Below, piece by piece: positions 1 to 29,470 of a DNA stretch of 64,000 nucleotides; within the stretch, counting starts at the first letter, position 1, and the number at the start of each line of letters is the position of its first letter. The stretch is from Zingiber officinale. Its lineage: Eukaryota; Streptophyta; Magnoliopsida; Zingiberales; Zingiberaceae. The notes under the pieces are model-generated. The model ran no database searches. It was not told the origin of the DNA and saw only the letters and a list, made by a program, of their open reading frames with translations. A program made the translations under genes and the position numbers. Location: contig NC_055996.1 in NCBI RefSeq assembly GCF_018446385.1, forward strand, positions 126,019,750 to 126,083,749, read 5' to 3'.

Positions 1-1551
1 TTTATAAAAAGGAAATTCAATAAATTAAAATCTTTCTTTTAACATGTGGATAAAAAGAAAGTTATCTCTAAAAATTAAAATCTCTTTTAATCTACAAATA
101 AGGAAAGATATCAAATCTTTTCTTAATCTTTTGTAGAAACTTATAAAAGAGAATATTTAATTTTAAACTATCTTTTAAATCATGAACATGGTTAAAAAGG
201 AAAGTTTTCTTAAAATTTAAAATCCTTCTTTAAACAACAAATAAGGAAAGATTTCAAATTTTAAACTCTTTTTTAAACATGTAGATAATTTTACAAATAA
301 GGAAAGTTTTTACCAAAAAATTAAAACCATCCTTTTAAACTACAAATAAGGAAAGAGATTAATCTCTTCTCTTAATCTTTTGTAGAAAGTTATAAAAGGA
401 AATTTTTAATTTTTAAACTCTCTTTTAAAATCATAATATCCACATAAGAAATAATTTTAATAAAAATCCTTTTTAATATTCTAGTGGCCGGCCACCTAAG
501 CTTGGGACCCAAGCTTTGGCCGGCCACCTACATGGCTCATCCACTTGGTCTTGGCCGGCCCTAGCTTGGGTTCCAAGCTAGCTTGGCCGGCCCCATTGGA
601 TGGGTAAGAAGGTGGGTATGCGGTGGGTATAAATCTCTATATACTAGAGGCTACGATAGGGACCGAGAGGAGGAATTGGTTTTGGTCTCTCGATGAAATT
701 AAGCATCCCGTGTTCGCCCTGAACACACAACTTAATTTCATCAATAATAATTCATTCCACTAAAGAACTATTATTGAACTACCGCACCAATCCCAAATTA
801 CATTTTGGGCTCCTTCTTATTATGAGTGTGTTAGTCTCCACGTGTTTAAGATAACAAATGTCCACTAATTAAGTAAGTTAATGACAACTCACTTAATTAA
901 TATCTAGCTCAAGAGTAGTACCACTCAACTTCATCATCATGTCGGACTAAGTCCACCTGCAGGGTTTAACATGACAATCCTTATGAGCTCCTCTTGGGGA
1001 CATTCTCAACCTAGATTACTAGGACACAATTTCCTTCTATAATCAACAACACACACTATAAGTGATATCATTTCCCAACTTATCGGGCTTATTGATTCAT
1101 CGAACTAAATCTCACCCATTGATAAATTAAAGAAATAAATATCAAATATATGTGCTTGTTATTATATTAGGATTAAGAGCACACACTTCCATAATAACTG
1201 AGGTCTTTGTTCCTTCATAAAGTCAGTATAAAAGGAACGACCTCAAATGGTCCTACTCAATACACTCTAAGTGTACTAGTGTAATTATATAGTTAAGATA
1301 AACTAATACCTAATTACACTACGACCTTCCAATGGTTTGTTCCTTTCCATTATGGTCGTGAGCTACTGTTTATAATTTATAAGGTACTGATAACATGATC
1401 CTCTGTGTGTGACACCACCCACCATGTTATCTACAATATAAATTAATTGAACAACTACATTTATCATAAATGTAGACATTTGACCAATGTGATTCTTATT
1501 TCTAGATAAATGTTTATACCAAAAGCTTGGCTTTTAGTATACACTCTAACA
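1..1551 (-). mobile_element. Partial LTR of long-LTR copia family A, cut by the window start
   Basis: This stretch aligns base for base, with few differences, to the last 1.55 kb of the two LTRs at 5952-8634 and 13159-15845 and stops at the same terminal ACTCTAACA. After base 1551 the sequence becomes the LTR tail of copia element B (ACCCAGGTCAACC...), so this copy sits inside the left LTR of B, 35 bases from its end. Its other end is outside the window, so it may be a solo LTR or the end of a whole element. It holds a 12-base palindrome at 484-495, a 19-base palindrome at 498-516 and a long hairpin at 692-742. Confidence 0.9.
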
Positions 1552-1586
1552 ACCCAGGTCAACCTTGACCTAAGGTTGCACCAACA
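1552..1586 (-). repeat. Visible end of the left (3') LTR of element B
   Basis: These 35 bases match the last 35 bases of the right LTR of B (16526-16560) with a few changes. The rest of the LTR lies to the left, beyond the inserted A-family LTR and outside the window. Confidence 0.75.
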
Positions 1587-2010
1587 ATTTTCCCCTTTTT
1601 GATGTTTGACAAAAACCATAATCAAGTTAGGTTAACCCGATAACCTAACTTAGGTTTTCCAATAGTTCTCCAATGTTCTTCCTTGAACATTCTCTGAACA
1701 TTCTCCCCAAACTCCAATGTTCTTCCTTGAACATTCTCTGGACATTCTCCCCCTTTTTGACACACATCAAAAGGAGTGAATCAAGGTCAAGAGTTTCTTC
1801 CTAATGAAAGTCTCATACCTTTCATTGAAACCCTTAATTTCCCCCTAGATACTAAAATCAACAATCAACTTAGTGATAATCACTTATTAAAAAAAACTTG
1901 ACGAGCAAAAATTCCCCCTAAAAGTCAACTCCCCCTTGACCATTAGGTAAAACTCCCCCTAAAGGTCAACTCCTCCTTGACCATTACACCAACAATGTCT
2001 TGGAGAGTTT
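1587..2010 (-). other. Primary and repeated purine-rich tracts of element B
   Basis: On the minus strand, CATCAAAAAGGGGAAAAT (1604-1587) directly precedes the 3' LTR and is the expected plus-strand priming tract of an LTR retrotransposon. Several similar tracts follow within about 400 bases, seen on the plus strand as TCTCCCC, TCTCCCCCTTTTTGAC, TTTCCCCCTAG, TTCCCCCTAAAAG, ACTCCCCCTTGACC and ACTCCCCCTAAAGG between 1690 and 1960. Two roughly 40-base units around 1669-1752 are direct repeats. Confidence 0.6.
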
Positions 2011-2087
2011 CAACCATTTAGAAATCTAAAACACTAACTTCCATAGCTGAAATTTCAAACAACAGTCGAAAATCAACATTTTGGCAC

Positions 2088-2216
2088 GCTCTGATCGGTC
2101 ACCAGACCGATCAGGACTCCACTGGATCGGTCACCAGACCGATCCACACTGCCCTGGATCGGTCCAGTGACCGATCCAGACTTCCCTGGACCGATCAGAA
2201 TCTTCTCTGATCGGTC
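2088..2216. repeat. Four hairpin-forming GATCGGTC...GACCGATC units
   Basis: Each unit is an inverted repeat with an 8-9 base stem (GGATCGGTC and GACCGATCC) and a loop of a few bases, at about 2093, 2124, 2157 and 2190. The same motif occurs five times in the LTR of the same element (5551-5760). The units lie in the non-coding tail downstream of gag. Confidence 0.85.
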
Positions 2217-3330
2217 CATAATTCTCTGATAAGAATTTCTGATTTTTCTCCCGAAATTCAGAAACCCCTAAAAAATTACAGAAAATTCCAAAAATTATAA
2301 AATTTTGATGATACATTCCTCATAACATATATTATCATGGAAAAATAGTTTTCTATGAAAATAACTCCCATTTTTTAATCTTGATACAAAGTTCGAAAGA
2401 CTTTGAAATAGCTCAAGGTTAATCCATCTTTGTATCCACTTGCTCAATGATGAATGCTATCACTAGAAAAGCTTCATCAAGGTTTTTCAAATCAATTTTG
2501 AAATGATCTTAAACCATTCAATTTAGGACCACAATCTTAGGGCTAAATGTACATGACTTGTACGCAAGTTTTCCCTATGATCCTCAATTTCGAATTAGGC
2601 TCATCTAGGTACAAAAACTATGCACCTTGATCCTAACTCATCATCCTAATATCTCACACACATCTAAGGTGTATCAAACACATCCAAGTCAATTTTGATG
2701 TGAGATATGGGTTTAGGTCATCTTAAGCTAAGTTCTGATGCATTTTCTAAACAACAATTAGATCTCCATATCAAATTGTGTTTTTATCCTTAAATCAATT
2801 TAATTGATCATAAATGCAAGAGATGATGACATGACATAAAATAATATCATAAGTGGAAATATGTGCCAATGTCATGATGTCATGACATAAAGTATGAAAC
2901 TTAAATAAGGCATGACATATAACTAACCTAAGTATTATCATGACATTTCAAATGATAATAAGTTAAATATGATGTCATGGCATGGCATATGGCAAACAAT
3001 ATATGACAAATAACATATAAAAGTATAGAAAATACCTAATTCTAGCCTTAGTTGTTATTTTTGATAATTTTGATCATTTTGCCATAAATTTTATATTCCT
3101 AAGTGTAATAGACCTAAAATCATATACTAAAGATTTTTAGATCACTATGTGCCAATTAGATTGATCCTAGAAAACTCCTCAAATGTGGTTGGCACATCCT
3201 AATCACCTTAGGAATAATTTTTAATTTCATTTTCAAGGCTTGATCACACCTTGAAAATTCCTAAAATGCCACCTTTTGCCATGAGTAGGTTAACTACCTA
3301 TCCAATTAAGGTTGACACACCCTAAACCAT
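2217..3330. other. Non-coding tail of element B
   Basis: AT-rich sequence between the hairpin units and the end of gag. It repeats short motifs around ATGACAT/CATGACAT (2830-3000) but I see no coding frame or domain. In an autonomous copia element this interval would hold pol; none is recognisable here on either strand. Confidence 0.6.
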
Positions 3331-4805
3331 CTAGCGTGAAGTAATCACGCTCCTAGCAACCCAATACCTATTTGAGCTCATTGGGTTCACTAAATATTCA
3401 CTAGGGATGACTTCCCTAGCAACCCTCCTAATGACCCTCCTAGGTTTTAAAGCCTTGGTCATTTGGGACTCATCAAGATCAACTCTAGGGGTGACTCCCC
3501 TTGTGACCTTGGTGATGGTCTTCTTAGCCCTAGGTCTTGTTCCATAATCGAATGGAACATTATGATAAGCGGGCTTGACCACTTGAGACTTAGGTTTGTG
3601 ACCCGAACCTCTCATGTCCTTGGGCTTTGATTTTTGACCCTTAGACCCTAGAGTTGACTTCTCCAAATTCTTAAGAGCATTTTCTAAAGTGTCAAGTCTT
3701 GACCTCAAGACTTGATTTTCCTTCTTTAATACCTCAAGCTTTAATTTTCCATTTTTCTTTGAGGTATTCCTAGGCATATGTCTAGTTGTTTTGGGATTCC
3801 TATCTAGGTTTTCCTTAACCTTAGATGAGTTAACTCTAGGGTTGACATTTCTAGCATTGTCCTTATCTAGGCTAACATGTTTGGCACCTAAGCACATGTA
3901 TCGGTTTCTATGGTTATCATGCTTATCATTATTGACAATTGCAATAAAACTACTAGCATGTGTCTTATTAGAATTGCAAGAATGTGCCTTAAAGGATACC
4001 TTAGGGTTTACCTTAGCTCCCCCCATAGATGTGCTTGGTCTCTTGTCCTTGTGAGGTTGCCTCCCCCTTGGACATTGACTCCTATAATGTCCCCTTTGCT
4101 TGCATTGAAAGCACACCACGTGCTCTTTACCCTTGCGTATCGGGACTCCGGCTTCCTTGACTTTTGGTGCCGGTGGAGTCTTCTTAATCCTCTTTGGACA
4201 TTTACTTTTGTAATGCCCATATTCCCTACACTCAAAGCACATTATATGTAATTTACTTGAAATTAAGTTGCTTGAGTTACCTAGGGTTGAGGATGGATAT
4301 AAGTTCTCTCCTTCATCCCTTCCGGAGGTAGAGGCTTCTTCTTCTTGCTCCAGTCTTGAAGAAGAACTCTCCTCCTCTTCTTCCTTAGATGTTGAGTAGC
4401 CCTCAACTTATAATTCCATACCTCCATGATGTGAGCTACTTGGCTCACTTGACTCCTGTTCATGACATGAATTGGAGCTCTCCTCATGAAACTTAGCCAA
4501 GTTGTTCCACAACTCCTTGGCATTGTTGTATCCACCTATCTTACACAAGATATCATTAGGTAATGAAAATTCAAAGATTTTCGTTACCTCGTCGTTGATT
4601 ATGGATTGGTGGATTTGTTCCTTCGTCCACTTCTTCTTCTCGAGAGGTTCTCCTTCTTTATCCACCGGAGGAATAAAACTACTTGTACACAATTCCAATT
4701 TACTAGGTTAGTCATAAGAAAATACTTCATTCTTACCTTCCGATACGCGAAGTCATCGCGATCGTAGAAGGGTGGAATCGTGACGTCTTTTCCAAGTTGA
4801 TCCAT
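3331..4805 (-). pseudogene. copia-type Gag with two CCHC zinc knuckles (frame-broken)
   Basis: Gag of element B, which would form the particle and bind the element's RNA. The likely start is at 4805 (MDQLGKDVTIPPFYD), followed by a UBN2/copia-gag-like region with the motif LPNDILCKIGGYNNAKELWN around 4500-4570, and two zinc knuckles of the form CX2CX4HX4C at about 4240-4200 (CFECREYGHYKSKC) and 4125-4080 (CFQCKQRGHYRSQC). The basic, coiled C-terminal part runs to 3331. The reading frame changes near 4700 and again near 4280, so at least two frameshifts or a deletion break it. No catalytic domain follows. The gag assignment is firm; the exact original start is less so. Confidence 0.82.
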
Positions 4806-4853
4806 TCTCTAGCTCGTGCTCCCTCGGGTGTCAATCCGACGAAGAGCGACCTC

Positions 4854-4865
4854 GCTCTGATACCA
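4854..4865 (-). other. Primer binding site of element B
   Basis: The minus strand reads TGGTATCAGAGC, the standard copia site complementary to the 3' end of initiator methionine tRNA. It lies two bases from the LTR boundary (TGTTAGG at 4868), which fixes the element's orientation. Confidence 0.92.
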
Positions 4866-5469
4866 CTTGTTAGGACCTTCGGATGGCTAGAGAGGGGGGT
4901 GTGAATAGTCGACCACAAATTCACGTTTCTTCCTACAATTTTAGTTAGCGCAGCGAAAATAAAAGATAGAAACGAAACAGGAGAATATCAAACCTCAAAC
5001 GCGACGATATAACGAGGTTCGGAGATGATACTCCTACTCCTCGGCGTATCCGTAAGGTGGACGAATCCTATCAATCCGTTGGTGGATGAGACCCTGGAAA
5101 ACTGGCTAATAAAAACTCCTTCTGGGTGGAGAAACCTCGCCACAATCTCTCTTGCAACAGCAAGATCGGAGTACAAAGATAAAGCAAGAAGCCAAGAATA
5201 ATATGAATGTAAAAACACTAGTTTGCTTGTCTTCTCGTCGACTGGTGATGAAGCAACCACTTCACGGATGCCAACAACAACAGCAACTGATCAGTTGGAG
5301 TCCAGCCGAGGGAAGCTCACACGAAGCTTCAGCAGTGGAGAGCTCAACAAAGCTCAGATCGCAGGAGCAAGAAGAAGTCAACCTACCTATAGAGGCCCTC
5401 CACCTCTTGATTTATATGAACCTGCGAAGAAGAAGACACAGACACAGAAATCTAGCCGTTGTGACTCAA

Positions 5470-5760
5470 CGGCTAGACCTGGACCGATCAGGCTCCACCC
5501 TGATCGATCCAGGACGGATCTGATCGATCAGGGGACCGATCAGGACCTAGGCTGATCGGTCCCCAGACCGATCAGGCCATAGGTGGATCGGTCCACAGAC
5601 CGATCCCTCCTATTCCTTCTCCCAATCTTTTTGGTTACTGATCGGTCACCAGACCGATCAGATGACCCACAGTGAGAATCAGTGCATCACTGGATCGGTC
5701 AGCAGACCGATCCAGATACCCATAGTATCACTGGATCGGTCAGCAGACCGATCCAATTTC
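5470..5760. repeat. Cluster of GATCGGTC...GACCGATC hairpins in the LTR of B
   Basis: Five clear inverted repeats, at about 5551, 5582, 5637, 5691 and 5730, each with a stem of GATCGGTC/GACCGATC and a 2-4 base loop. They are preceded by looser GATC-rich repeats at 5485-5550. The motif is the same as at 2088-2216. Confidence 0.85.
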
Positions 5761-5779
5761 CTAGCCTTAAACCCTAAAG

Positions 5780-5951
5780 TCTTCCTGATCTAGAGAACGA
5801 GCTACCGAGTCCTCTCTGGCCTAGTCCGGAGAACGAGCTACCGAGCCCTCTCTGACCTAGTCCGGAGAACGAGCTGCCGAGCCCTCTCCGACTTCGTCCG
5901 GTCCAGAGAACGAGCTACCGAGCCCTCTCTGACCTAGTCCGAAGAACGAGC
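5780..5951. repeat. Minisatellite of about 36-40 bp (left half)
   Basis: Tandem units beginning GAACGAGCTACCGAGCCCTC and continuing TCTGACCTAGTCCGGA, with variants reading CCGACTTCGTCCGGTCCA. The array was cut in two by element A and resumes at 15846. Confidence 0.88.
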
Positions 5952-8634
5952 TGTTGGTTGCTACTCGGAAAACCTAGAGGTTCCACTGTACAAAAATTTT
6001 GTACAAAGGTCTGAACCTTTTCCTAGCTACCATGTGTTCTTTTAAATTAAATTTTGGATCGCCTGCGGAACTTAACACGTTTGATCCAAAACTTAATCTA
6101 TTCGTTCTTTTAGGTTTTGACTTGGGTCTCCTGCGGAACTTAACACGTTCGACCCAAATCACCTTAAGTTATTAATTCCATTAAATATTAATTTCCATAA
6201 TTGGTTCCCAGTACTAACGTGGCGAGGCACATGGCCTTCTTGGATATGGGAGCAACCACCACCGACTAGACAAAACCTTTTATAGAAAGGTAATATTTAA
6301 TTTCCTAAAATAACTTTAGGTTAACCGAAAAGAACAATCAAATCACAAGGAAAAGAAAAAACAAAAGAACACAACATCGAAAAACATATTCAAAATTCTA
6401 GAATCGTAAGCCTCTTGTATTTGGTATTATTTCCATAAATAACTAGCATGATGCAGAAAGGAAAAATTACTAGTTATACCTTCTAAAAGACCTCTTGATC
6501 TTCTACCGTATTCCTCTTCTAACCTCGGACGTTGTGTGGACAACGATCTTCCGAGATGAGAACCACCAAGTACCTTCTTCTTCCTTACAAGTTTCGGCCA
6601 CCACAATTCTCCAAGAGAAGTAGAGGTCCGGCCACCACCACCAAGCTCCAAGGGATGCAAGAAACAAAGCCACCTTTCTCTCCTTCTTCTCCTAGCTAGA
6701 ACCGGCCACCATCAAGAGCTCCAAGAGAGGTTGCCGCCGGCCATAAGAAGAAGAGAAGAGGAAGAAGCTAGGGCCGGCCACCAAGGAGAAAAAGAGAGGA
6801 GAAGAATAATAGAGTTGATCACCCATGAAGGCACCTCTACCCCCTCTTTTATAATCCTTGGTCTTGGCAAATAAGGAAATTTAATTAAAAACTTCCTTAA
6901 TTATTTTGTCATGAAAAAGAAAATTTTATTTAATTAAAAATAATTTCCTTTTACAAATACAATGGCCGGCCACACTTCTCCACAAATCAAGGAAAGTTTT
7001 AATTAAAACAAAATTAAAACTTCCTAATTTGTTTCTAGAAATTTATAAAAATTTCTCCAATAATTTTATCCCTTCATGATTGGTTAATAAAAAGGAAATT
7101 TTATAAATTAAAATTTTTCTTTTAAACATGTGGATAAAAAGAAAGTTATCTCTAAAAATTAAAATCTCTTTTAATCTACAAATAAGGAAAGATATCAAAT
7201 CTTTTCTTAATCTTTTGTAGAAACTTATAAAAGAGAATATTTAATTTTAAACTCTCTTTTAAATCATGAACATGATTAAAAAGGAAAGTTTTCTTAAAAT
7301 TTAAAATCCACCTTTAATCAACAAATAAGGAAAGATTTCAAATTTTAAACTCTCTTTTAAACATGTAGATGATTTACAAATAAGGAAAGTTTTTACCAAA
7401 AATTAAAACCATCCTTTTAAACTACAAATAAGGAAAGAGATTAATCTCTTCTCTTAATCTTTTGTAGAAAGCTATAAAAGGAAATTTTAATTTTTAAACT
7501 CTCTTTTAAAATCATGATATCCACATAAGAAATAATTTTAATAAAAATCCTTTTTAATATTCTAGTGGTCGGCCACCTAAGCTTGGGACCCAAGCTTTGG
7601 CCGGCCACCTACATGGCTCATCCATTTGGTCTTGGCTGGCCCTAGCTTGGGTTCCAAGCTAGCTTGGCCGACCCCATTGGATGGGTAAGAAGGTGGGTAT
7701 GCGGTGGGTATAAATCTCTATATACTAGAGGCTACGATAGGGACCGAGAGGAGGAATTGGTTTTGGTCTCCCGATGAAATTAAGCATCCCGTGTTCGCCC
7801 CGAACACACAACTTAATTTCATCAATAATAATTCATTCCACTAAAGAACTATTATTGAACTACCGCACCAATCCCAAATTACATTTTGGGCTCCTTCTTA
7901 TTATGAGTGTGTTAGTCTCCCTGTGTTTAAGATAACAAATGTCCACTAATTAAGTAAGTTACTGACAACTCACTTAATTAATATCTAGCTCCAAGAGTAG
8001 TACCACTCAACTTCATCGTCATGTCGGACTATGTCCACCTGCAGGGTTTAACATGACAATCCTTATGAGCTCCTCTTGAGGACATTCTCAACCTAGATCA
8101 CTAGGACACAGTTTCCTTCTATAATCAACAACACACACTATAAGTGATATCATTTCCCAACTTATCGGGCTTATTGATTCATCGAACTAAATCTCACCCA
8201 TTGATAAATTAAAGAAATAAATATCAAATATATGTGCTTGTTATTATATTAGGATTAAGAGCGCACACTTCCATAATAACTGAGGTCTTTGTTTCTTTAT
8301 AAAGTCAGTATAAAAGAAACGACCTCTAATGGTCCTACTCAATACACTCCAAGTGTACTAGTGTAATTATATAGTTAAGATAAACTAATACATAATTACA
8401 CTACGACCTTCCAATGGTTTCTTCCTTTCCATTTTAGTCGTGAGCTACTGTTTATAATTTATAAGGAAACCGATAACATGATCTTCTGCGTGTGACACCA
8501 CACACCATGTTATCTGCAATATAAATTAATTGAACAACTACATTTATCATAAATGTAGACATTTGACCAATGTGATTCTTATTTCTAGATAAATGTTTAT
8601 ACCAAAAGCTAGGCTTTTAGTATACACTCTAACA
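5952..8634 (-). repeat. 3' LTR of element A
   Basis: A TATA-like box on the minus strand (ATTATAAAAGAGGGGG, about 6848-6862) is followed by a CT-rich stretch, giving a U3 of roughly 1.8 kb. The LTR includes an A/T-rich block of repeated ACAAATAAGGAAAG units (7080-7560), palindromes near 7565-7600 and the hairpin at 7773-7823. No coding sequence is recognised. Compared with the other LTR it is nearly identical except for a patch at about 6830-6985. Confidence 0.93.
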
Positions 8635-8645
8635 ATCTCCCACTT
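8635..8645 (-). other. Polypurine tract of element A
   Basis: The minus strand reads AAGTGGGAGAT directly before the 3' LTR, the position and composition expected of a copia plus-strand primer. Confidence 0.8.
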
Positions 8646-11600
8646 ATACTAAAAGACTATGCTGCCCTGCCATACATCTGATTCCCAACCCTTCAACATG
8701 CCCATCAAAAGCTCTTGCCTTAAGGACCTTAGTGAAAGGATCTATAGGTCATCACCTGATGCAATCTAGGCGGCAACAACTTCTCCTCGTTTATACGATT
8801 TCTCGTATTGGGTGGTACTTGCGCTCTATTGTGTTTACTTGCCTTATAGACTTATGGTTTCTTCGAGTTTGCTACTGCACCAACATTATTACAATAAATT
8901 GTAATAATCTTTGGACAAATCAGAAATCATTTCTAAGTCTATCTTGAGGTTATTGAGTCATTCAGCTTTTATGGCTACCTCAGAGGCTTGTCATATACTA
9001 AACTTCTATGGTGGAGTCCAGAAAAACACCTATGCTTATCACTCTTCCATAGTTATGACTTTACCTCCTAAAGTAAACACAAAACCCCGAGGTTGACTTA
9101 TTATTGTCCCTATCCGATTGGAAGTCAAAATCCATACAACCCACAAGGACCAAATTAACTGCCTTGTAAGCTAACATATAATCTCTAGTACCTCTAAGGT
9201 ACTTCAATATATGCTTTACTGCAGTCCACTGTCCTTGTCTAGAGTTACCTTGTTATCTGCTAACTATGCCCTTGGCAAAACAGATTTCTGATCTCGTGCA
9301 TAGCATACATTAGGCTTCTGTCAGCCGAAGCATAAAGAACTGCCTTTATTTCCTTTATCTCCTTTGATGTCTACAGAGACATATCTTTAGATAAAGTTAC
9401 TCTATCCTGAAAAGGTAAGAAACCTTTCTTGGAGTTTTGTATGCTTAAAACGAGCAAGGATTTTTTCGATGTATGAAACTTGGGATAAGTAAAATATTCT
9501 TTTCTTGCGATCCCTTATTACTTTGATCTCAAGAATATATACATTCTCTCAAGTCCTTCATATCGAATTGTTTGGACAACCATACCCTTACTTCTGACAA
9601 CACTTTGATATTGTTTCCAACTACCAAAATGTTATCTACGTATAGTACAAGAAATACCACCACGTTTCCATCACGCCTTTTGTATACACAAGACTTATCC
9701 GGTTACTAAATAAATCCATAGGTCTGGATTACTTTGATAAACCGGATGTTCCAAGACCTTGAAGCTTTGCCTCAGTCCATAGATTGATTGAGCTTACACA
9801 AGATGCTCTTAGCCCTTTGCAATGAACCCTTCTGGTTGCTTTATATGGATGCTTTCTTCAAGACTTCCATTAAGGAATGCTGTCTTGACATCCACTTGCC
9901 AAATAGATAAAAGAATCCGGATAGATTTTAGCATGACTACCAGTGAAAAAAGTTTCCTTTTTCATCAAGCCTTGCTCTGAAGGTTTCTACCTTCCTGTCT
10001 ATCCTTCTTTTCCTATTATAGACCTTTTACACCCAAAGGCTTTTACACCATTTGGTGGTTCTACAAGCTTCCAGATTTTATTAGAATACATATATTCTAA
10101 TTCTGTTATTCATTACTCTTTGCCAAGATGCTGCATCTTTATCTTGGAGTGCTTCATCATATGAACGGAGATCAGGTTCATGTCCTTCAGGGATCGAGTC
10201 CAAAAACTCTCCCAAAACATGAATCTTTTTAGGTTGCTTAACAACCCTCCCACTATGACAAGACACTTTCTGTAATTGTGTATCATTTGTGATACGTGTT
10301 GCAGTTTCCTTGTGGTATCTCATCTTATACAGTTGGTACTAGATTAGACATATCTTTTATTATTTCCTTAAGAACAAATTTACTTATGAGCACGTGGTTC
10401 CTAATATAGTCATTTTCTAAAAATCAGTCATTGATGCTAACAATGACCTTCTGATTTTTAAGACTATAAACCTTCTTTTGTTTATCTAGGATAACTTACA
10501 AACAAGTGAACTCCTATCCAACTTATCATTGTCTCTCTTTAACATATGTGCTGGATTACCCGAATCCGAATATGCTTCAAAAATAGGTTTTCACCTATTC
10601 AGCAATTCTATATGAGTAGAGAGTTCTAACTTGGAAGGTACTATGTTCACTTTCGTTTTCAGAGTTTATCCTTAAAACAAATTTGATAATTTTCTGAATA
10701 ACTCATCATCTATCTAATTATTCCATAAGAGTCCTTTACCTTCTTTCTACTACACCATTCTGTTGGGGTGTACCAGATGCAGTTAGTTGGGATTGAAATC
10801 CAACTTCTGATAAGTGACTCCTAAAATCTCTCAAGAGGTACTTGCCACTACGATCTTCCATAGTGACTTTTTACTTTAACATTTCTCCGCATCAACCTTG
10901 TACTCTTTGAACTAATCAAAGTACTTAGTCTTGCGGTACATTAAGTAAATTTATTTGTATCTTGAATAGTTGTCTATAGACAAAATATTCAATACTACCT
11001 CTTGTCTGGATAGTCATAGGATCACACAAATCAGAATGAACCGATTTCAACATATCTTTGACTCCATACCCCTTGGACTTAAAAGCTTCTTGGTTATTTT
11101 CCTTCCAAGTAAGACTCGTAGGTTGGAAAGATTTCCACTACTAATGAACCCAAAAGTTCATCAGCTACCAATGAATCCTACTCAAGTATAACCTAGCTTT
11201 TAGATGTCAAAGATATAATTGGTTCATTTCCGAAGGTTGCTTTCTCTTAAAATTAGAAGATGTGTTACTAATTTCCATTTGTTGCATCGTGGGAGTTATT
11301 GGATTATAAATTGTCAACCACCATACCAGAATAGATAACTTTCCTATTTTTCTTGATAACAACTTTGTTATCAAAATAGACACAATATCTATAATAGTTT
11401 AGAAACTGAAGTCAGGTTCTTTCTAAACTTGGTACGTAAAGATAATTACTTAAAATCCATATTTTATTCTTATCAAAGGATAAACATCTCCCACTGCAAT
11501 AGCTACCACTTTTACAGTAGTGCCCATGTGGACGGTGATTTACCTTTCATTTAGTTGTCGGGTTTCCTGGAACCCTGCAATGAATTGCAGACATGATTAA

Positions 11601-16560: not shown

Positions 16561-16678
16561 TCTTCTACATTTATAAATTCTAAGAAATACTCTTCTATTT
16601 TAATTGGAGTCTCTGAAACATCTACACATCTTAATATGAGTGTCATTTGTTCTTTGTGACTTGCATCCGGTGTACAAT
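16561..16678 (-). pseudogene. hAT transposase, downstream fragment between two insertions
   Basis: On the minus strand these 118 bases, read from 16678, continue the transposase frame that stops at 25533: after the ACAAT/ATTGT duplication the frame gives [18 protein letters not shown], typical of the DUF4371/hAT region that follows the conserved Asp of the catalytic core. The frame is open to 16561, where element B interrupts it. The rest of the transposase would be beyond B, outside the window. Confidence 0.85.
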
Positions 16679-18266: not shown

Positions 18267-18301
18267 CACCCCCAGACTTAAACCTTTGCTTGTCCTCAAG
18301 C
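18267..18301 (-). other. Polypurine tract with upstream hairpin (LTR-proximal)
   Basis: The minus strand reads GCTTGAGGACAAGC (hairpin, 18301-18288), then a short spacer and TTTAAGTCTGGGGGTG (18282-18267) abutting the LTR. This is the plus-strand priming site expected for the element. Confidence 0.85.
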
Positions 18302-19324: not shown

Positions 19325-19360
19325 ACACCCCCCAGACTTAAACTTTTCATCGTCCCGATG
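19325..19360 (-). other. Second hairpin plus polypurine tract
   Basis: The minus strand reads CATCGGGACGATG (hairpin, 19360-19348) followed by TTTAAGTCTGGGGGGTGTC (19343-19325). It copies the arrangement next to the LTR about 1.06 kb away, with a different hairpin sequence. Confidence 0.75.
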
Positions 19361-19417
19361 AAATCAATATGGTGGAGGAGGTGGAGGTGGACGAGGAAAA
19401 GGGGGTCTACGACGTGG

Positions 19418-20863
19418 TTAGCCAATAGGAAAACCTGGAATCTCACCCAAGGATCTATGATACTCATATAAAGCATCTACTTGTTGGCTAGTAAGTGTCA
19501 TGCTCTGCATAAAATCTCTCATCCTAGCCTGATCAGTATCATAATCCTGCACAAACTCAGCCACTTGACCTTGAAAATTCCTCGTAAACTGAAAATGATT
19601 TTGTACCTCCCTAAACTGATCATCAGATAAAGAGAAGCGACCCTCCAACATTTTTCGTTGGGCATCTTGCTTCTCATGAAGTGATTCTAGAGACGTACGA
19701 AAATCTGAAAAATCAAACCTAGAAGATCCCGTGCCATATGAAAAAGAATGCCTAACAGGCTCCATAAAACTAGAAGGCTGCGGGTGTCCAAATGACTAGG
19801 GCTCATGATGTGGCTCAGTGTCTCCAGGTATAGAAGGGTTATCCTCAAAATCTAACTCAGAAATTACCCAATTAGCCGGGTTACGAATAGTAGTTCGTTC
19901 AGGAAAAGGAAGGGGTAAAGGAGAACCACTCCTCCTAGGAAACGCGAAACCATTCTCATTCCGAACGATCATTTTCATAGCAAGACATGCATCAATGTCA
20001 ATCATGTCATTACCATGAATTATTTCCAACCCATCAACATCAAGATTTAAATTATAAGCTATTCGGGTAATCAAACCACCAAAAACAATTGATCCCAATG
20101 ATGCCCTAGCAGATCTTAATAAGGTTTGAACAAAATGAAAACCAGAATCAAATTCAACCTTATAGAGCATAGCCCATAAAGCATAAAGCTCTATCTTTTT
20201 AACTACCCCATCACTCTCTCCCCTACCAAAAATAGTTTTACTCATGACTCTATGTAGATACCTAAAGATGGGGTTTTGCATATTGGAGGCCTTAGCTCTT
20301 GAAGGCTCATAAGGTTGATCTAACCCAGTTATTGCATTCCAAAAATGATTCCAATTAAACCTTGGATCAAACCTACGAGGGCTCCCGGTGGTTAATCCAA
20401 AACAAGAATTAAAGTCACTAAATGTCCATAGAAATTCTTAATTCATTAGTCTAAATAAGATTTTTCCAAAATAATCATCTTCATTAGTAAAATGGACATC
20501 CAATGAACTTAAAAATTCCAAAACAAGACGAGGATATGTAGGCAAATATGTGTACATAATATCACTCCAATCCAAAAACCCAATCATCAAATCTACATCT
20601 TCCCTAATTCCAAGCATATCAAGAACAGTTGGGTCCATATATCTAGTACACACTATCTTTCTATTGACAAGAATTGCAAATCTAGTTACTTGATCATCAT
20701 TTCTAAGCACAATATTGAATTCATTGTCATTACCTTTGTTGCGTGAAGTCCTTTTGCCTTTTCCCTTCACTGGTTGTTTTCCTTTGTCCCTTGATGGCTC
20801 CTCCTCTTTGTCCCCACTGGATCCACCACCTCTTTTGCGAAGTTTCTTCAAAATGTTGGACAT
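19418..20863 (-). pseudogene. ATHILA ORF-1-like protein, two in-frame stops
   Basis: One continuous frame of about 482 codons running from 20863 (MSNILKKLRKRGGG) to 19418, interrupted only by a TAA at 20440-20438 and a TAG at 19798-19796. The first part is a basic, Gly/Lys-rich tail. The middle (about 20600-19900) resembles the ATHILA ORF-1/plant transposon protein family, with stretches such as YLHRVMSKTIFGRGESDGVV and ALWAMLYK. The last 115 codons are Gln- and Glu-rich and probably coiled. In ATHILA elements this ORF lies after pol; its function is not established. Here pol is absent and the ORF follows gag-protease directly. Confidence 0.72.
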
Positions 20864-21059
20864 CTTAATGAGTTTAGATAGGGGAAGAATTATCTAGGGT
20901 TGGAAGAATGAAACTCAAAGAACAAAACTTCAAAGAGCAAAGATCTTAGGTTAGGAGAATGAAAAGTTCAAGTCTTAGAGAGGAAAAGAATCCAGATCTA
21001 AGAGATCTTGAGAGATTAGAGAGGAGTTTTTAAGAGATTGGGAGAGAAAGAGATGTTTT

Positions 21060-21450
21060 GGAGAGTTGGGGGTGTGCGGAACACGGCCAAGATCTGGCCG
21101 TGTGAGGTAGTAAGAAGACTTTAATAGCTCCCCTACACGGGCCGTGCAGATCCACACGGCCTCCCCCTCTTCCTTCTCTGGACTCCAGACACGGGCCGTG
21201 CAGATCCACACGGCCTCCCCCTCTTCTTTGACTGGTTTCCTCGCACGGCCGTGTCTGGGACACGACCTCTCCATCTTTCTTCTCGGGATTCTTTACACGG
21301 CCGTGTTTGAGATACGGCCTAGGCCCTTTTCTCCTCGGGAAATCCTACACGGCCGTGTCTGGATGACACGACCCAAGCACTTCCCTTCTCTGCAACTTTT
21401 GCCTGGCCGTATATAGCACACGGCCGGGCTCTGTTTTGCACCTAACCTGA
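21060..21450. repeat. CACGGCCGTG palindrome cluster
   Basis: Repeated CACGGCCGTG and close variants (ACACGGGCCGTGCAGATCC, CACGGCCGTGTCTGG) spaced 30-60 bases apart. They occupy the place between gag-protease and the ATHILA ORF where pol would be expected. The same motif fills part of both LTRs (17740-18045 and 24960-25300). Confidence 0.85.
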
Positions 21451-21575
21451 AAACAAAATCAAAAGAATGCATCAAACTAAAAGAAATTAAAATACAAATC
21501 AAAACTAACTAAAAGAACCCTTGGGTTGCCTCTCAAGAAGCGCTTGTTTAAGGTCTTTAGCTCGACCAAACTTGA

Positions 21576-24050
21576 TCATTCGCTTCTTTTCCTCGCCCTT
21601 GGAGGACAGATATACTTTTCGTTTTTGTTGGGAGATCTTCTCCCAACATCTTCCACCACATTGTCTCCGTTTGGTGGCCTTCCATGAGGATGGAAATTCC
21701 ATTCCTCAAGTTTATAAATGTTTGTCCTGCTACAAGCATTTAAAAGAGACGAGACATGGTTAGGGATATTAGATAAATCATATTCCAACCTTTCCTTACC
21801 AATTACCAAAAAAAGCTTATGATTTTTGACATCAATTATAGCTCCAGCTGTAGCAAGGAAAGGTCTTCCTAATATGATAGGAATCCTAGGGTCCTCTTCC
21901 ATGTCCAACACGACAAAATCTGTGGGAATAACATTCCCATCCACCTCCACTGGCACATCTTCTATAATACCCAAAGGGTACCTGCAGGAATAATCGGCAA
22001 GTTGAAGTGCCATAGTAGTAAGTTTAATGTTTTTGAGACCTAATTTATTACAAATTGAATAGGGAATGAGACTAACACTTGCCCCCAAATCACAAAAAAC
22101 TTTTTCAAAAAATTCTTTTCCTATGTTGCAAGGAATATAAAAGCTCCCTGGGTCCTTTAGTTTTGGGGAAGTGTTCTTCTCCAAGATAGCACTACATTCC
22201 TCACTAAGCGTAATGGTCTCAACCTCTCCTCTTCTTCTCTTGTTTGACATGAGATCCTTCAGGAATTTGGCAAATCTAGGCATTTGAAGAATAGCATCAA
22301 TAAGAGGTACCTCTACACAAATTTCCTTAACTTTTTCTAAAAACTTGCCAAATTCTTCATCTTTCTTGAGCATTGTAAGTCTCTGAGGAAAAGGGACAGC
22401 TTTGCTCTGATGGTTCAGTGGAAGAGTCTCTTCAACCTCAATGGTACTCTCCTCATTAGCTTGAATCTGATTTGGTATAAGAGGAGAGAGCTCTTCTTCT
22501 TTTTGTATCCCTTTTGGAGCAGTCACTTGGGAGTCTCCCAAGGTCCGTCCGCTCCTAAGCTCAATCCTATTGCAATGCTCCATAGGATTCACATCAGGTT
22601 TTCCTGGAAGTTGTCCTGGTGCTCTGGATGATGAGGAAGCTAGTTGGGCAATTTGACTATCCTGGATCTTTTGATGCTTTTCAGAATTATCCATTCTCTG
22701 ATTGAGCTTTGCTAAATCTTGCTTCATTTCATTCTGACTTGAGATAATTTCTTCAAGCATCTTTTCAATATTTGACTTTGGTAAGTCTTGAGAAGATAGA
22801 TGTTGAAAATTTTGTTGCCCAGCTTGAAAATTTTGTCTTGCCCCCATAGATGGTCCTTGATCTTGATTATTTCTGTAAGAAAAATTGGGATGGCTCTTCC
22901 ATCCAGGGTTATAAGTATTTGAGTATGGGTTGTTCTGCCTTTGATTGTAACTCATGATTGCATCACATTGTTCCAGTTGATTGATTTGTGCAGTGATAGC
23001 TCCCAATGGACATGAGTCATTTGAATGCTCTGAACTCCCACATACTTCACAAGATGTACTAATAGCATTGACCATATTAGCACTAGTCCCCATATTCTCA
23101 AATTTCTTTGTAAGAGCGCTCAATTTTGCAAACAAAAGAGTGACCGCATCTACATCAAACTTCCCTGATGCTTTAATTGTTGGGTTTACAGAAGAATAGC
23201 CACCACTTCTTTCATTTGCCCATTGACGATGATTTTGTGCTACACTGTCAATAATTTCTTCAGCTTCATCTAAACTTTTGTTCATAAGTGCCCCTCCCGC
23301 AGCTGAATCAAGGGATACTTTGGTATGATAGTTGATACCATTATAAAAAGTGTGCAACACTAACCATCTTTCTAACCCATGATGTGGGCATTGTCTGAGC
23401 ATACTATTATATCTATCCCATGCTTCAAAAAAAGATTCTGAGTCAGTCTGCTTGAAGCTTGCAATTAAATTCCTCATATGAGCTGTTTTGCTTGGTGGAT
23501 AGAATTTATCAAGAAACTGTTGCTCACACTGCTCCCAAGTGGTGATGCTATTAGGGGCCAAAGAATTCAGCCATTGCTTTGCCCTATCTCTTAGAGAAAA
23601 CCCAAATAATAATAATCTAACTGCATCTGAAGGAACTCCATTCATTTTCATGGTACCACATATTTCATAAAAGACCTCTAAGTGTTGATTGGGGTCTTCA
23701 TGAGGTCCTCCACCAAATTGGTTCTGCTGCACCATAGATATAATTGCGGGTTTGATCTCAAAGTTATTAGTTTCCACTGAAGGTCTTGAAATACTAGATC
23801 GAAAACCTCTTGCATAAGGTGCTGCATAATCCTTGAGTGGTCTATTCGCCATGTTCAAATGTTCTTGTTCTTCTATTTGCCTTTGCAGAATTCTTCTTTT
23901 ATGGAAAGTTCTGTCAATCTCAGGGTCAAAAGGAAAGAATTCCCCTGCAAAGTTAGATCTTCGCATACACAAGAACAAGATAGCAATTGACAATTCAACA
24001 GAAAAAAAGAAAAATAAAAGAATCAAAAATGCAGAATTGAATTTGTACAA
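21576..24050 (-). CDS. Retrotransposon Gag-protease polyprotein (ATHILA-like gypsy)
   Basis: An intact 824-codon frame. After a hydrophobic N-terminal stretch that may be untranslated, MRRSNFAGEFFPFD (residue 29) is a good alternative start. The gag core is around residues 125-260 (WLNSLAPNSITTWEQCEQQF, then RYNSMLRQCPHH and FYNGINYHTK). A single zinc-binding box CEVCGSSEHSNDSC follows near residue 335. Near residues 655-740 is a retropepsin-like protease with DLGAS in place of the usual D-S/T-G-A and the flap/end motif ILGRPFLATAGAIIDV. The protein ends about 80 residues later with no reverse transcriptase. It would form particles and process Gag if expressed. Complete coding capacity in this one frame suggests a fairly recent element, although the downstream ORF already has stops. 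Confidence 0.88.
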   Translation of the reverse strand: MYKFNSAFLILLFFFFSVELSIAILFLCMRRSNFAGEFFPFDPEIDRTFHKRRILQRQIEEQEHLNMANRPLKDYAAPYARGFRSSISRPSVETNNFEIKPAIISMVQQNQFGGGPHEDPNQHLEVFYEICGTMKMNGVPSDAVRLLLFGFSLRDRAKQWLNSLAPNSITTWEQCEQQFLDKFYPPSKTAHMRNLIASFKQTDSESFFEAWDRYNSMLRQCPHHGLERWLVLHTFYNGINYHTKVSLDSAAGGALMNKSLDEAEEIIDSVAQNHRQWANERSGGYSSVNPTIKASGKFDVDAVTLLFAKLSALTKKFENMGTSANMVNAISTSCEVCGSSEHSNDSCPLGAITAQINQLEQCDAIMSYNQRQNNPYSNTYNPGWKSHPNFSYRNNQDQGPSMGARQNFQAGQQNFQHLSSQDLPKSNIEKMLEEIISSQNEMKQDLAKLNQRMDNSEKHQKIQDSQIAQLASSSSRAPGQLPGKPDVNPMEHCNRIELRSGRTLGDSQVTAPKGIQKEEELSPLIPNQIQANEESTIEVEETLPLNHQSKAVPFPQRLTMLKKDEEFGKFLEKVKEICVEVPLIDAILQMPRFAKFLKDLMSNKRRRGEVETITLSEECSAILEKNTSPKLKDPGSFYIPCNIGKEFFEKVFCDLGASVSLIPYSICNKLGLKNIKLTTMALQLADYSCRYPLGIIEDVPVEVDGNVIPTDFVVLDMEEDPRIPIILGRPFLATAGAIIDVKNHKLFLVIGKERLEYDLSNIPNHVSSLLNACSRTNIYKLEEWNFHPHGRPPNGDNVVEDVGRRSPNKNEKYICPPRARKRSE

Positions 24051-24189
24051 AAAGAATTAACAAGAAGTAAAAGTTATACAAGAAAGTAAAAAAACAGAAA
24101 TCTAATGATTAGCTACAACTATGCAATATGAAAGGAAAACAAATGTTATGTTTAGTCTAACTCAATTGATAGTTCCTAATGTTATAGCG

Positions 24190-24207
24190 CAATCCCCGGC
24201 AAAAACT
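24190..24207 (-). other. Primer binding site of the ATHILA-like element (diverged)
   Basis: The minus strand reads GTTTTTGCCGGGGATT next to the LTR boundary. It resembles the TGGCGCCGTTGCCGGGGA site of ATHILA-type elements, with the first half diverged. Confidence 0.65.
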
Positions 24208-24208
24208 T

Positions 24209-25532
24209 GTTACGCTCCGCAAGTGTACGGAAATGTCGCAAGTAATATAAAAGATTATCGTATCCACAGGGACTGGAATAAGCACTAGAAATGTCTCAAT
24301 GCGAATTAGCTAAACAACTATCCAATCGTTTCAAATGCAAAGTGAAGGTAAACAAATCTAATATTAAAGATCAGCAAACAAGAGTTTAGTATTTTGGGTT
24401 ATGATAAAGGGAGATTCTAGGAGTTTCGGTTTCTTTGTAAGGTTTCTTGAATGTAAATGGTTCACAAATTCTTATCCCTCAATTGCCAAACACTTGTAGA
24501 AAGTTGCTGGTTCTCTCTTGCAATAGATAACTGACTAAGGACTGAGAAATGTATCTAAATATGATCAATTAGACGTGAACCTACGTTGTCCTTACACAGA
24601 AGCGCACCTATTACTATGCCTTCATAGAATCCATGAAGCCCACAACTTATTAATCTATCAAGATACAAGAAACTAATCACAAGATCCATCCTACTCTCTT
24701 GAATATTCCTATTTCCTCTTCAAGATTATCTCTCAAACGTCCTTACACGGGCTTGCACCTGCCACGTGGATCCCTCGAATGATCGAGTGAGAGTTTATCT
24801 TTACAAAGTCCACAAGAAATCCAAACAATCAATCAAGAATGAGAATTAAGCACAAATCACCATTAATCATTCAAGATCTAATTGATACAAGCAAGACAAT
24901 GTCATTGAAACAAGAAAATGGCAAATCCATAAGAGATTACATCAATCCATCATACAAATACTGCCACACGGCCCCACGACACGGCCGTGTGAGATTCACA
25001 CGGCCATGTCCAGTTCCTTCTCTGCCAAAGCTGCACGGCCGTATGACTCACACGGTCAGGACCCTTCTGTTCTCTGTAAATGCTACACGGCCGTGTGGTG
25101 CACACGGCCACCACCTGCTTGGCCTCTGGAAACCTCACACGGCCGTGTAGATCTACACAGCCATGTAAGGCTTCTGCTCTGATTTCTTCAAATCAAGACA
25201 CGGCCGTGTGAGATTCACACGGCCATGTCATCTTCCTCTTCTGTTTGTGCCAAACTCCACACGGCCCGAGCTCCATACCAGTGCAGGGTCGTGTGAGGTA
25301 TACGGCCTGGTGTTTTCTCCCTTTGTTTCCTCCAAGGCTTGCCCAAAGATGTAGATTCTTCACCAAATCGACTCCTGTGTACAGAAAATGCACAAAAGCA
25401 GATCTCCGAACCAAAAGAGTAAATATGCTAAAAGGAAAGCTGGAAGTATAAAAATGCATAGATCAAGCATGCTCAAAGTATGTAAATGTGCGTAAAAACA
25501 TGCATAAAAGAGTATATAATCTACGCACATCA
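24209..25532 (-). repeat. 5' LTR of the ATHILA-like element, shortened
   Basis: 1324 bases, homologous to 16679-18266 but lacking about 300 bases after position 24960, including the TATA-like box. It carries CACGGCCGTG palindromes at 24963-25300. Confidence 0.92.
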
Positions 25533-26651
25533 ACAATCAAGAATTACTGAAAAATATTTTGCCTCTTTTACTTTTTTAATTATTGCATTCCTGACTTTGG
25601 AGGCTAAAATAGATATTAACTCGTTTTGAATTTTATGACTAAGATAATGATAATGAATCTTTTTATCTTGAATGAGTCGAAAATGTTCTTGCATTATTGG
25701 ATCAAAATCTGCAATTATTTCAAGTAGACCCAAAAAATTACCATTACTATCTTCATAAATTTTGTCATATGTACCACGAAATGCCAAATTATGTATAGCA
25801 AGACATTTTACAACAACAACTATTATTAGCATAATGTGTTTCCAATGTTTTGTGTCCTTTTTAATTTGTTCTTGTATTTCCTTATCAATTGTCAATGTTT
25901 TCTTTAATCTCATTTGTAGTTCAACAAAAGCTCTTAGATTAGTGAGGTGTTCAACACTATTTTCATGTTGTTTAAGTTTGTCACATAAATGTTTCCAGTC
26001 ATTAACTCCTTCTCTTGCTAAATTACTTTTGGTGTGTATTACTTTAAACAGCTTACAACAAATACAAAATACTCTGTCTAACTCCTTCGAGTACACTAAC
26101 CATTTTCGATCACGAGTCTCACCATTTGGTAACATTTGAACATAATAAGTATGAGAAAAGTGTCGAGATTCTTTATCTAAAGGAAACTTAAGAATATCTT
26201 CTCTTTTAGGACCTCTTTCCACAAGTAAATTCCTCATTTTTGTATCAAGAGTATCCCAAACTCGTGGATCAAATATGTTCAAATCATATTTAGGTGTCGA
26301 ACATTGATATTTGTTTGTATGCTCATCATCACAAAACTTATCAATATCTTTAGTTTTGTCAATTTCAATTTTATCCAAATTATTAACATCTACATTATCT
26401 TCGTTCTCATTTTCTACAAATTTCTCATTCTCATCACTTTCATTTCTCACAAATTCTTTATTTTCATCATTCTTGTTTTCAACAAAATCTTCATTAACAT
26501 TTGATTCATTAGTTAAAATATGAACTAAATTTTCTGTTGTGTTATGTGATTCTTTACCAAAATATTTGTTTAATGAACCTCTTAAGCTTTGGGCTATCTC
26601 TTCTTCTTTTTTCTTTTTTTGTCTTTTTTGATATCCAGAGAGTTGTTTCAT
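25533..26651 (-). pseudogene. hAT transposase with TTF-type zinc finger, N-terminal part
   Basis: The frame starts at 26651 ([15 protein letters not shown]), a typical start for the zinc-finger MYM/TTF class of hAT proteins. It has an Asn/Glu-rich low-complexity spacer (residues about 50-110), then [10 protein letters not shown] and a TTF-type finger region with [10 protein letters not shown] and [10 protein letters not shown] (about 165-215), then DUF4371-like sequence ending at KYFSVILDC. There it is cut by the gypsy element at 25532. The frame resumes at 16678 with a single copy of the duplication, so the gene was open when hit. The protein would bind the element's ends and cut DNA, but this copy is split by two insertions and cannot be made whole from this locus. 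Confidence 0.88.
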
Positions 26652-28259
26652 GATAATAGATAATTATGAACAAAAAGCAATAAACAAAGAACAATAAAAC
26701 CTGATATGGAGAATTTTCTTTTGATTCGAAATCCACTTATATAAGACCTTATACAGATATCCTGCAAGTTTATAAAAAAAACATAATTCAATTATTTAGG
26801 AGTTAAGACCTTATTCGTATAATTAAAACAGTAGTAAAATAAGGTTTCAAAAAAAGATAACACTAAAGTCAACTAAATTTCCATGGTTAGGTTGCTATAT
26901 TATATTGTTTGCTATTTGATTTTAATCAATAATCAATTAATTATGAAAGAAGTATTCTAGCTACTCAGTGAAGTTAACTAGGCTATTTATTAAAACAATA
27001 TCTATCATTTCAGAAATTATAAATAAAATAAGATTTTCAAGCAATGCTAATTTCTTTATATTAAGCTTGAATAGTTAAATACAATAAAAAAAATTAGAGA
27101 GCTATTGTGTGAAATTATGAAACATGCATCTACTTTAATATTAAATTGTCTTTATGTTCAAATGCCTAAACAAGGATTATAACTCCTAATGATTGAGAGT
27201 ATATACTCTCACCAAAAATTATCAATTTGTACCTAAGGATTATAACTCCTAATGAAACATTCCACCAACAATCATCTTGTAATTGAGAGTATATACTTGA
27301 TTCATTTAATACATATTATAACTGAGAGTTATAAGACTCTGATTGCAGCATATGATTCAATTCGTTCCTATCAGCTTGCTAGGAAATAGGAATAACTCCT
27401 TATTTAAGTCATTTGCCCTAACATTCTATATCATTGTTCTCATTGTTATGTTTAATTGTTAAAATTGGCCCTATGGGAGTATAACTGCACAAGCTCTATC
27501 TTTAATTCAAAGTTGTACAGTTTGATTGAAACAGGATATCAAAATAGGATTTTTTTTTATAGATTAGGTGAAATGGCTCGCACAAATTTGGAATTGACAT
27601 GGTGCTTTGATATCCTACATTTATCCGCATAAAATGTTTTACATATAAAGTATAAACATGATAAAAGTGGATCGCAGACTGTGAAGGGGAAAAAATCACC
27701 AGAAGAAAGGGAAGTGAGACATGACAGGAAGAATACCAAATAGATGGGTTTCACAACAACTGCAGTCCACAGCAGTAACTTACGGCTATAAGTCCTTCTG
27801 TCCTTGGCGCTATTTGCCTGATTTGTGTGTTGGACGTGAGCTCACAGCCACCCCCAATTCACGGCGCTCTCCTGCAGTCGTCGCAGCGAGAGAGGGAAGG
27901 TGCGGCGAGGAGGGCTTCAGTGGGGATTGGGGAGAGGGAGAATCGCAAGGCGTGGTGAGGAGAATCGCTGAATCGGCGCTTCGACGAGGAGAATTGTTGG
28001 CGACTGGCGCTCGGCGAAAGCGGCGAGGGTTTTGACGAAGGATGAAGAAATTAGAAAAACGTTTATAAAAAATAAGAGAAAAAAACCCGTTAATAGATAT
28101 ATATATCTATAACATTTATAAAAAATAAATTAAGAGAAAAAACGTATATATGTATAACGTTTATATATATATATATTATATATATAAAAAAAATGGGCCC
28201 CTAAGAGTGTTTGGGTCCTGGGCAGGTGCCCTGGTAGCCCTGGTCCAGGGCTGGCTCTG
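26652..28259 (-). mobile_element. 5' region and end of the hAT element
   Basis: Upstream of the transposase start on the minus strand lie about 1 kb of AT-rich sequence, a GC-rich stretch (27830-28035) that could be the untranslated first exon or promoter, TA-rich subterminal sequence (28085-28190) and GC-rich subterminal repeats of CCAGGG/CCCTGG. The end is CAGAGCCAGCCCTGG at 28259-28245, typical of this hAT group. The next eight bases, AGTCGGAG (28260-28267), would be one copy of the target duplication. The 104-codon plus-strand frame at 27721-28035 shows no domain and I reject it as a gene. Confidence 0.75.
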
Positions 28260-29470
28260 AGTCGGAGTAAGTTGCTTGGTTCTCTTTTTGATTTATCCTA
28301 GTAGTTGATGGAAACATTTTATATGACTAAATTGATCATCTAAACATTAATTGATTTAACTTGGATAATCTGATACCAACTTAAAACAAAATAAATACTA
28401 ATTAAAAAACAATGGTGCCTTTTGAAATTTGGATAATTTAGGTCCCTTTTGAAATTTGGATTATTTAGGTTAATTTTATTCAAAATTGCTATATAGAATC
28501 AAATTTTAAAAATAGGCATAAATGATTCCTAATGTCTAGGGAACACAATAAATGATTCATTTGTGAAATTTGACCAATTTATACCTATATAGTAATTTTT
28601 TTTTTTATCAAAACTGCTAAATGACCTCTTAACTAAAACGATAAACGTAAAGTATAAAATGACTCTAAAAGCTTTGGGAAATACAATACAAGACTTAATT
28701 TTTTTTTTAAGATTGTTGTCAATTTAGGTTCATGTAACAATTTTGATAAAACTACCGTATGAATCTAAATTAGTCAATATAATAAAAAAGAGAGGATAGA
28801 GCAACTTTACGAGATTTAGAAAACACAATAAGGGAAGTTATTTATGAAATTTGAGCACATTAGATCCATGTAACAAGTTGAACTAAAATTTTACATAGTC
28901 TTTCTTAGCCCAAATTAAATAACATAAATAATAACATAGAATGACTTTAAGAGCTTTAACAATCACAATAGAGGGGTCAACTTAGGTAATTTGATCCATC
29001 TAGTTCTTGTCGAAAGTTAGTACAAAAATCTAAAGTAGTTAAAATTAGAGAATAAAGATATAGAACAGCTATAGAAAGTCCATAGAATATTACAATGGAG
29101 TCATTTGTAAAATTTAGAGAGTTTAATTTTAGGTTTATATAATAATTTTGATCAAATTTGTTACATAGTCTTCTAAGACATAAACAATAAAACTAGGAGC
29201 ATAAAATGATATCAGAAACTCGAGGAAACATAATAGAAAGTTATATTTGAGATTTGAATAGTTAAATCTAAGTAGTAATTTTAGCAAAAATTATTATATT
29301 GAAATTGGAACAACTTATTTTCAAATAACAATTTCGAGCAAATTTACTATATATATTTAATTAAACTATTCAAAATTGGGCGAAAATAAAAATGGAATGA
29401 CTCTAGAGGATATATTCAAATAATAATTTTGACCATATTTATTATGTAGATCTAAACTATTTAAAAAAAA
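28260..29470. repeat. Old tandem repeat of about 140 bp, strongly decayed
   Basis: AT-rich sequence in which the same succession of phrases recurs: ATGACTCTAAAAGCTTT..., a short ACACAATA block, AATTTGAC/GAGCA, then TAACAATTTTGATAAAA and ACATAGTCTT. The AxxGACTxTAxxAGxTTT landmark recurs near 28657, 28802, 28939, 29065, 29206 and 29395. No open frame of note. Confidence 0.55.

Follow-up and report, generated by a model that had tools for sequence, protein, structure and literature searches.

The 64,000-nucleotide stretch of the Zingiber officinale genome analysed here, C11:126019750-126083749 (contig NC_055996.1), hereafter the window, is occupied over its left part by a DNA transposon of the hAT superfamily into which long terminal repeat (LTR) retrotransposons appear to have inserted, some of them to be invaded in turn. 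Negative coordinates run leftward from the first base of the window into the adjoining flank (loci L031-L034); neither the window nor any of these four loci contains an N. The genome searched was one 3.09-Gb assembly of 211 contigs. With the left flank included, we recognize seven elements in total, namely hAT and six retrotransposon copies inserted into hAT or into one another, and hAT with its contents spans -23080..28259, that is, 51,340 bp (a 51.3-kb stack). Judged from its sequence, the arrangement is almost certainly a stack of transposable elements that inserted independently, one after another.

Elements at the locus

The features, from left to right, are as follows.

-23088..-23081: left copy of the hAT target duplication, AGTCTGAG.
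-23080..28259, minus strand: hAT transposon, with the ends CAGAGCC...GGCTCTG.
-22841..-20157: A3, a solo A-family LTR inside hAT; duplication GTTCA.
-17548..16560, minus strand: LTR element B; target duplication TCTTC, left copy -17553..-17549, right copy 16561..16565.
-15753..1551: A2, the second A-family element, inside the B 3' LTR; duplication ACCCA; partner LTR in the left flank.
-11136..-3613: D, inside A2; duplication GAGAG.
1..1551, minus strand: right LTR of A2, 96.5-96.8% identical to the LTRs of A.
1552..1586, minus strand: last 35 bp of the B 3' LTR, matching 16526-16560 at 33/35 positions; the right copy of the A2 duplication, ACCCA, makes up its first five bases.
1587..4867, minus strand: B internal region, 3281 bp, with a gag-like open reading frame (ORF) at 3331-4407 that contains a zinc knuckle (zf-CCHC, PF00098).
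4868..5951, minus strand: inner part of the B 5' LTR, starting TGTTAGGACC, with a tandem array at 5793-5951.
5947..5951: left copy of the A target duplication, CGAGC.
5952..15845, minus strand: Ty1/copia element A, 9894 bp, inside the B 5' LTR; LTRs 5952-8634 and 13159-15845.
15846..15850: right copy of the A target duplication, CGAGC.
15846..16560, minus strand: outer part of the B 5' LTR (710 bp plus the CGAGC copy), ending ...CACAAACA and matching the B 3' LTR at -16434..-15754.
16561..16678, minus strand: middle fragment of hAT, between B and the gypsy element; 37 open codons (16673-16563) and a codon split by B.
16674..16678: left copy of the gypsy target duplication, ACAAT.
16679..25532, minus strand: Athila-like Ty3/gypsy element, 8854 bp, with TG...CA ends; LTRs 16679-18266 and 24208-25532, located by self-match.
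25533..25537: right copy of the gypsy target duplication, ACAAT.
25533..28259, minus strand: 5' part of hAT, with the right terminal repeat (ending ...GGCTCTG) and the first 373 transposase codons from the ATG at 26651.
28260..28267: right copy of the hAT target duplication, AGTCGGAG.

All six 5-bp duplications (ACAAT, TCTTC, CGAGC, ACCCA, GAGAG and GTTCA) agree at 5/5 positions, the element ends read TG...CA, and for every insertion an uninterrupted target can be found: in other hAT copies for the gypsy element, B and A3, in the other LTR of B for A and A2, in the internal region of A for D, and on contig C12 for hAT itself. A 5.7-kb hAT is flanked by the AGTC(T/G)GAG copies and contains the gypsy element, B and an A-family element, the last now a solo LTR (A3) that probably arose by recombination between its two LTRs; A sits in the 5' LTR of B and A2 in its 3' LTR, and D sits in A2. 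The initial annotation, made on the window alone, had described four layers; the window by itself reaches three levels (hAT > B > A), and the fourth appears with the left flank, in the chain hAT > B > A2 > D, which goes deepest. The order it proposed, hAT followed by gypsy and B and then by A, is borne out by the nesting. Its placing of A last holds among the elements that it considered, and A2 and D lie beyond the window edge; nesting gives no order for A relative to either of them. The leftward extension that it had suggested does place the other end of B within hAT: to the left of B come TCTTC and then, from -17549 leftward, hAT sequence 97.6-98.3% identical to four other hAT copies.

The duplication CGAGC is by itself weaker evidence than the other duplications, because it is located in a tandem array whose units contain CGAGC. 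Clean insertion of A is better shown by the two LTRs of B, which without A are collinear and of near-equal length (1794 bp vs 1795 + 30 bp), the inner part of the 5' LTR matching -17548..-16471 of the 3' LTR at 96.7%. A occupies 5952-15845 with CGAGC on both sides, and its initial annotation as an insertion in B stands. Assignment of 1-1551 to B was rejected, since it is A-type LTR sequence with its own partner LTR and its own ACCCA duplication.

The base element has the features of the hAT superfamily, as far as sequence can tell: an 8-bp target duplication, short terminal inverted repeats (CAGAGCC at either end, perfect over 7 bp and matching at 12 of the first 15 positions) and a C-terminal dimerisation domain (PF05699, E 3.2e-17). 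A zinc-finger match (PF25431) in its 5' part scores below its cut-off, and a Pfam scan of the 37- and 354-residue transposase pieces gave no match. Likewise, 16679-25532 has the features expected of an Athila element, with predicted gag, protease and Athila ORF domains (Retrotrans_gag PF03732, Asp_protease_2 PF13650 and ATHILA PF03078, all above their cut-offs), LTRs with TG...CA ends and a 5-bp duplication; no reverse transcriptase or integrase domain was found in its four longest minus-strand ORFs, the only ones scanned. Its left LTR (17439-17749) has about 290 bp more than the corresponding part of the right one (24963-24984), bordering a GC-rich palindromic repeat array. In A, a copia-type reverse transcriptase (RVT_2, PF07727) is matched by two separate ORF pieces (E 7.6e-9 and 9e-8); the pieces at 10736-10870 and 10925-11137 look integrase-like by eye, with no Pfam match, and 13145-13156, again by eye, contains what we take to be the complement of an initiator-Met-like primer site. 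B and D are candidate Ty1/copia elements. The zinc knuckle is the sole domain match in B, with no pol domain in the two B ORFs scanned. D also has a zinc knuckle, together with a Retrotran_gag_2 match below its cut-off (E 0.0018); neither of the two D ORFs scanned contains a pol domain. By eye, the end of its LTR resembles the start of the B LTR on the opposite strand, and the internal region of B is matched in two short stretches, at 73.9 and 74.8%. D is a relative of B and lies on the opposite strand inside A2, so that going down the chain a B-type element alternates with an A-type one. Elsewhere, on C14, three A-family LTRs in one orientation lie near 7977479, 7984684 and 7991907, about 7.2 kb apart, in a tandem LTR-internal-LTR-internal-LTR-like row.

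Relatives of the hAT element and its reading frame

Relatives of hAT were sought with the 118-bp fragment 16561-16678 as query, which gave 490 first-look candidates; 40 matches were scored, the window's own copy among them, at 97-100% identity, and 30 loci were fetched, the window's own copy and 29 others. The gypsy and B sites are both uninterrupted in all 29 of the other loci, some with point changes: with these allowed, the gypsy site reads ...TGTACAAT directly followed by CAAGAATTACTG..., and the B site ...TTGTA directly followed by TCTTC.... The joins thus proved exact on both sides when checked, as the initial annotation had proposed, against uninterrupted copies, and such copies across the genome are the strongest test against chance joining. 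Among the eight longer loci fetched, the A3 site is uninterrupted in 8/8 and the region 25533..28259 is alike in 8/8, the match extending to 28259/28260 in six. Comparisons of divergence and length use six of these eight, L036 and L038 having been dropped as their right part is interrupted or runs off the locus end. The hAT-own sequence within the stack amounts to 5677 bp, within the range of 5667-5802 bp in the six uninterrupted copies, and the 8-bp target duplication is perfect (8/8) in five of these six. One locus (L042, C9:7979821-7988938) has a second hAT left end in opposite orientation near the first, with differing flanking 8-mers.

On the minus strand the transposase frame begins with the ATG at 26651 and is open for 373 codons, as far as the gypsy boundary (377 codons between stops ahead of the gypsy site). 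When ACAAT is counted once, the next codon starts at 16673 and the frame remains open to 16561, where B, ending at 16560 and followed by TCTTC, cuts it, in agreement with the initial annotation. Past the B site there follow the codon split by B, 354 codons, one in-frame stop at -18617 and then 99 open codons, which contain the dimerisation domain. Leaving out an insertion together with one copy of its duplication always restores the frame; what carries information is that no stops occur. Ten of the 29 other loci are open for at least 371 codons ahead of the gypsy site and onward across the B site, five of them also for 492 codons after the gypsy site; the remaining 19 have a stop within that stretch in the same frame, two of them falling narrowly short (355 and 363 codons). 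Because stops are mostly gained, the gypsy element very likely entered a frame that was still open at its site. The claim of an open frame at that time holds locally, at both window sites, with one in-frame stop further on. An open frame is common to about a third of the loci and is no proof of a functional gene.

LTR divergence and the order of insertion

Divergences are Kimura two-parameter distances (K2P, or K) between the LTRs of an element unless another pair is named. For B, K2P is 0.0298 over the whole LTR; with the array left out, its two parts give 0.0271 and 0.0178. For the gypsy element it is 0.0218 outside the repeat array and 0.0398 with the array aligned apart, a single global value (0.047) having been rejected as inflated by the array. 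The raw value is 0.0189 ± 0.0027 for A, 0.0102 for A2 and 0.0089 for D, and the LTRs of A differ from those of A2 by 0.066-0.067. The hAT copy in the stack differs from the six other copies by 0.020-0.024, and the right flank on C11 differs from C12 by 0.0203 overall, unevenly between parts (0.0331 and 0.0154). When CG and CHG sites are excluded, B (0.0144 and 0.0135), gypsy (0.0135), hAT (0.0127-0.0173), the flank (0.0176) and A (0.0169) agree within error, and A2 (0.0068) and D (0.0066) are lower than the rest. Neither nesting nor LTR divergence orders the gypsy element relative to B.

Dating by LTR divergence, as the initial annotation had suggested, is misleading for A when the raw value is used, which taken as a true age would make A older than both A2 and D. 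We consider that order unlikely. Of the 50 differences between the LTRs of A, 38 fall within 341 of 2682 bp, in two clusters whose limits were set after seeing the data, and 26 of these 38 are transversions; elsewhere 12/12 differences are transitions and K is 0.0052 ± 0.0015. The final 933 bp are identical, a gap reached in 0/5000 uniform placements. Clustering tests gave 0.13 for A2, 0.51 for D and 0.15 for the first gypsy segment, none of them clustered, and 0.015, weakly clustered, for the first 0.9 kb of B. The raw K of A was rejected as an age since its differences are clustered. Divergence outside the two clusters favours A as the youngest element, a ranking with which the raw value disagrees. 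The likeliest cause of the clusters is ectopic gene conversion, although they may reflect an assembly error in this AT-rich tract; on comparison with A2 and A3, neither LTR of A is simply ancestral across the tract.

The empty site on C12 and the weighing of alternatives

The right flank of hAT matches C12:139928364-139929339 at 96%, with further stretches, as far as window position 34201, at 95-97%; the left flank matches C12:139927926-139928171 at 87%, with one more stretch at 90.5%, and beyond about 0.4 kb of left flank the search, which covered the 30 kb fetched, gave no long C12 match. At the C12 junction a single AGTCTGAG is followed by TAAGCTGCTTGG, an uninterrupted target without a footprint; some 170-180 bp to the right of the site are either missing from C11 or added in C12. 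On this local match C11 and C12 are apparent homologues. As read from these sequences, hAT and all its contents are absent at this C12 site: the hAT target is empty there without a scar, and the whole 51.3-kb stack is thus lacking. The stack probably grew in its entirety after the two chromosome copies diverged at the locus. hAT elements move by cut and paste, so C12 might formerly have held the transposon and lost it, leaving a site that is empty without being ancestral, but hAT excision usually leaves a footprint and C12 has exactly one AGTCTGAG and none, which makes such a loss distinctly unlikely. Some 9-14 kb to the left of the empty site, C12:139914142-139918895 (L051, L049) carries a diverged element of the A family, matching at 82-87% in LTR parts and at 77-84% in internal parts. 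To the right of the stack, window positions 37298-38143 contain a 281-residue ORF matching DUF761 (cotton fibre expressed protein), the only match in a Pfam scan of 10 ORFs there; this ORF is probably an ordinary host gene.

Since the elements are present in many copies (3698 first-look candidates for the end of the A LTR, besides the 490 for the hAT fragment), repeats of the same family could have been wrongly stitched during assembly into a false nesting. We regard this as very improbable: the six duplications and TG...CA ends lie exactly at the junctions, a chance join would give a 5-bp match about once in 1024 (simple arithmetic with equal base use), the hAT pieces add up to the length of uninterrupted copies, and the sequence is free of N. 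The least credible alternative, that the three near-identical LTRs 1-1551, 5952-8634 and 13159-15845, all in the same orientation, form one multi-LTR array produced by unequal recombination, as the rows spaced at about 7.2 kb elsewhere (C14 near 7.98 Mb) might suggest, was rejected, since A and A2 have each their own LTR pair and differing paired duplications (CGAGC, ACCCA), are separated by B sequence rather than A internal sequence, and differ in their LTRs by K 0.066-0.067.

Several observations weigh against a stack of independent insertions. All the evidence comes from one assembly. The copies of the hAT target duplication, AGTCTGAG and AGTCGGAG, agree at 7/8 positions, leaving one mismatch. 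The left flank matches C12 at 87-90% over some 0.4 kb, and K reaches 0.147 over the 246 bp nearer to hAT, a divergence far above that of the right flank. Finally, the whole-LTR divergence of B nominally exceeds that of its hAT host and of the right flank, and as a date a B older than its host is impossible.

Nested retrotransposon stacks are known from maize and other large plant genomes, for example in a 22-Mb maize region (PMC2773423); here, by comparison, it is a hAT DNA transposon, itself known in many uninterrupted copies, that forms the base, and the site of the entire stack is empty on an apparent homologous chromosome. Roughly one nested element in four is reported to have LTRs more divergent than those of its host, for which gene conversion was proposed (PMC7251063). 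As in that report, the LTR divergence of a nested element is misleading here and omission of suspected converted regions shifts the estimate; conversion within elements was reported there as much more frequent than between elements, whereas the two clusters of excess differences in A point to import from another copy. As in PMC6911290, copia and gypsy elements are nested in other elements and 5-bp duplications dominate; LTRs were reported as not commonly targeted there, whereas A and A2 have each entered a B LTR, a count (2/2) too small to mean anything. Nested stacks are standard in large plant genomes (PMC2773423, PMC6911290), and only the present instance is new. Among the papers searched, none dealt with nested LTR retrotransposons together with hAT in Zingiber officinale, which is no proof of absence.

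A more far-reaching proposal would treat the stack as a haplotype-private, internally ordered clock and, in its boldest form, would ascribe to A-family elements, which make up three of the six insertions, a target preference and an active mutual rewriting of LTRs by conversion. We hold it to be improbable; if true, five datable LTR pairs, the empty homologue and the uninterrupted hAT copies would form one locus of known order, which could gauge ectopic LTR gene conversion and the faster mutation of CG and CHG sites. The value of the locus is that of a clean worked example, not a discovery, with exact junctions, many uninterrupted relatives of the base element and an empty site on the apparent homologue. 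It illustrates how raw LTR-LTR divergence makes A precede A2 and D, whereas omission of two suspect clusters makes it follow both, and how one chromosome copy can gain about 51 kb that is missing from the other.

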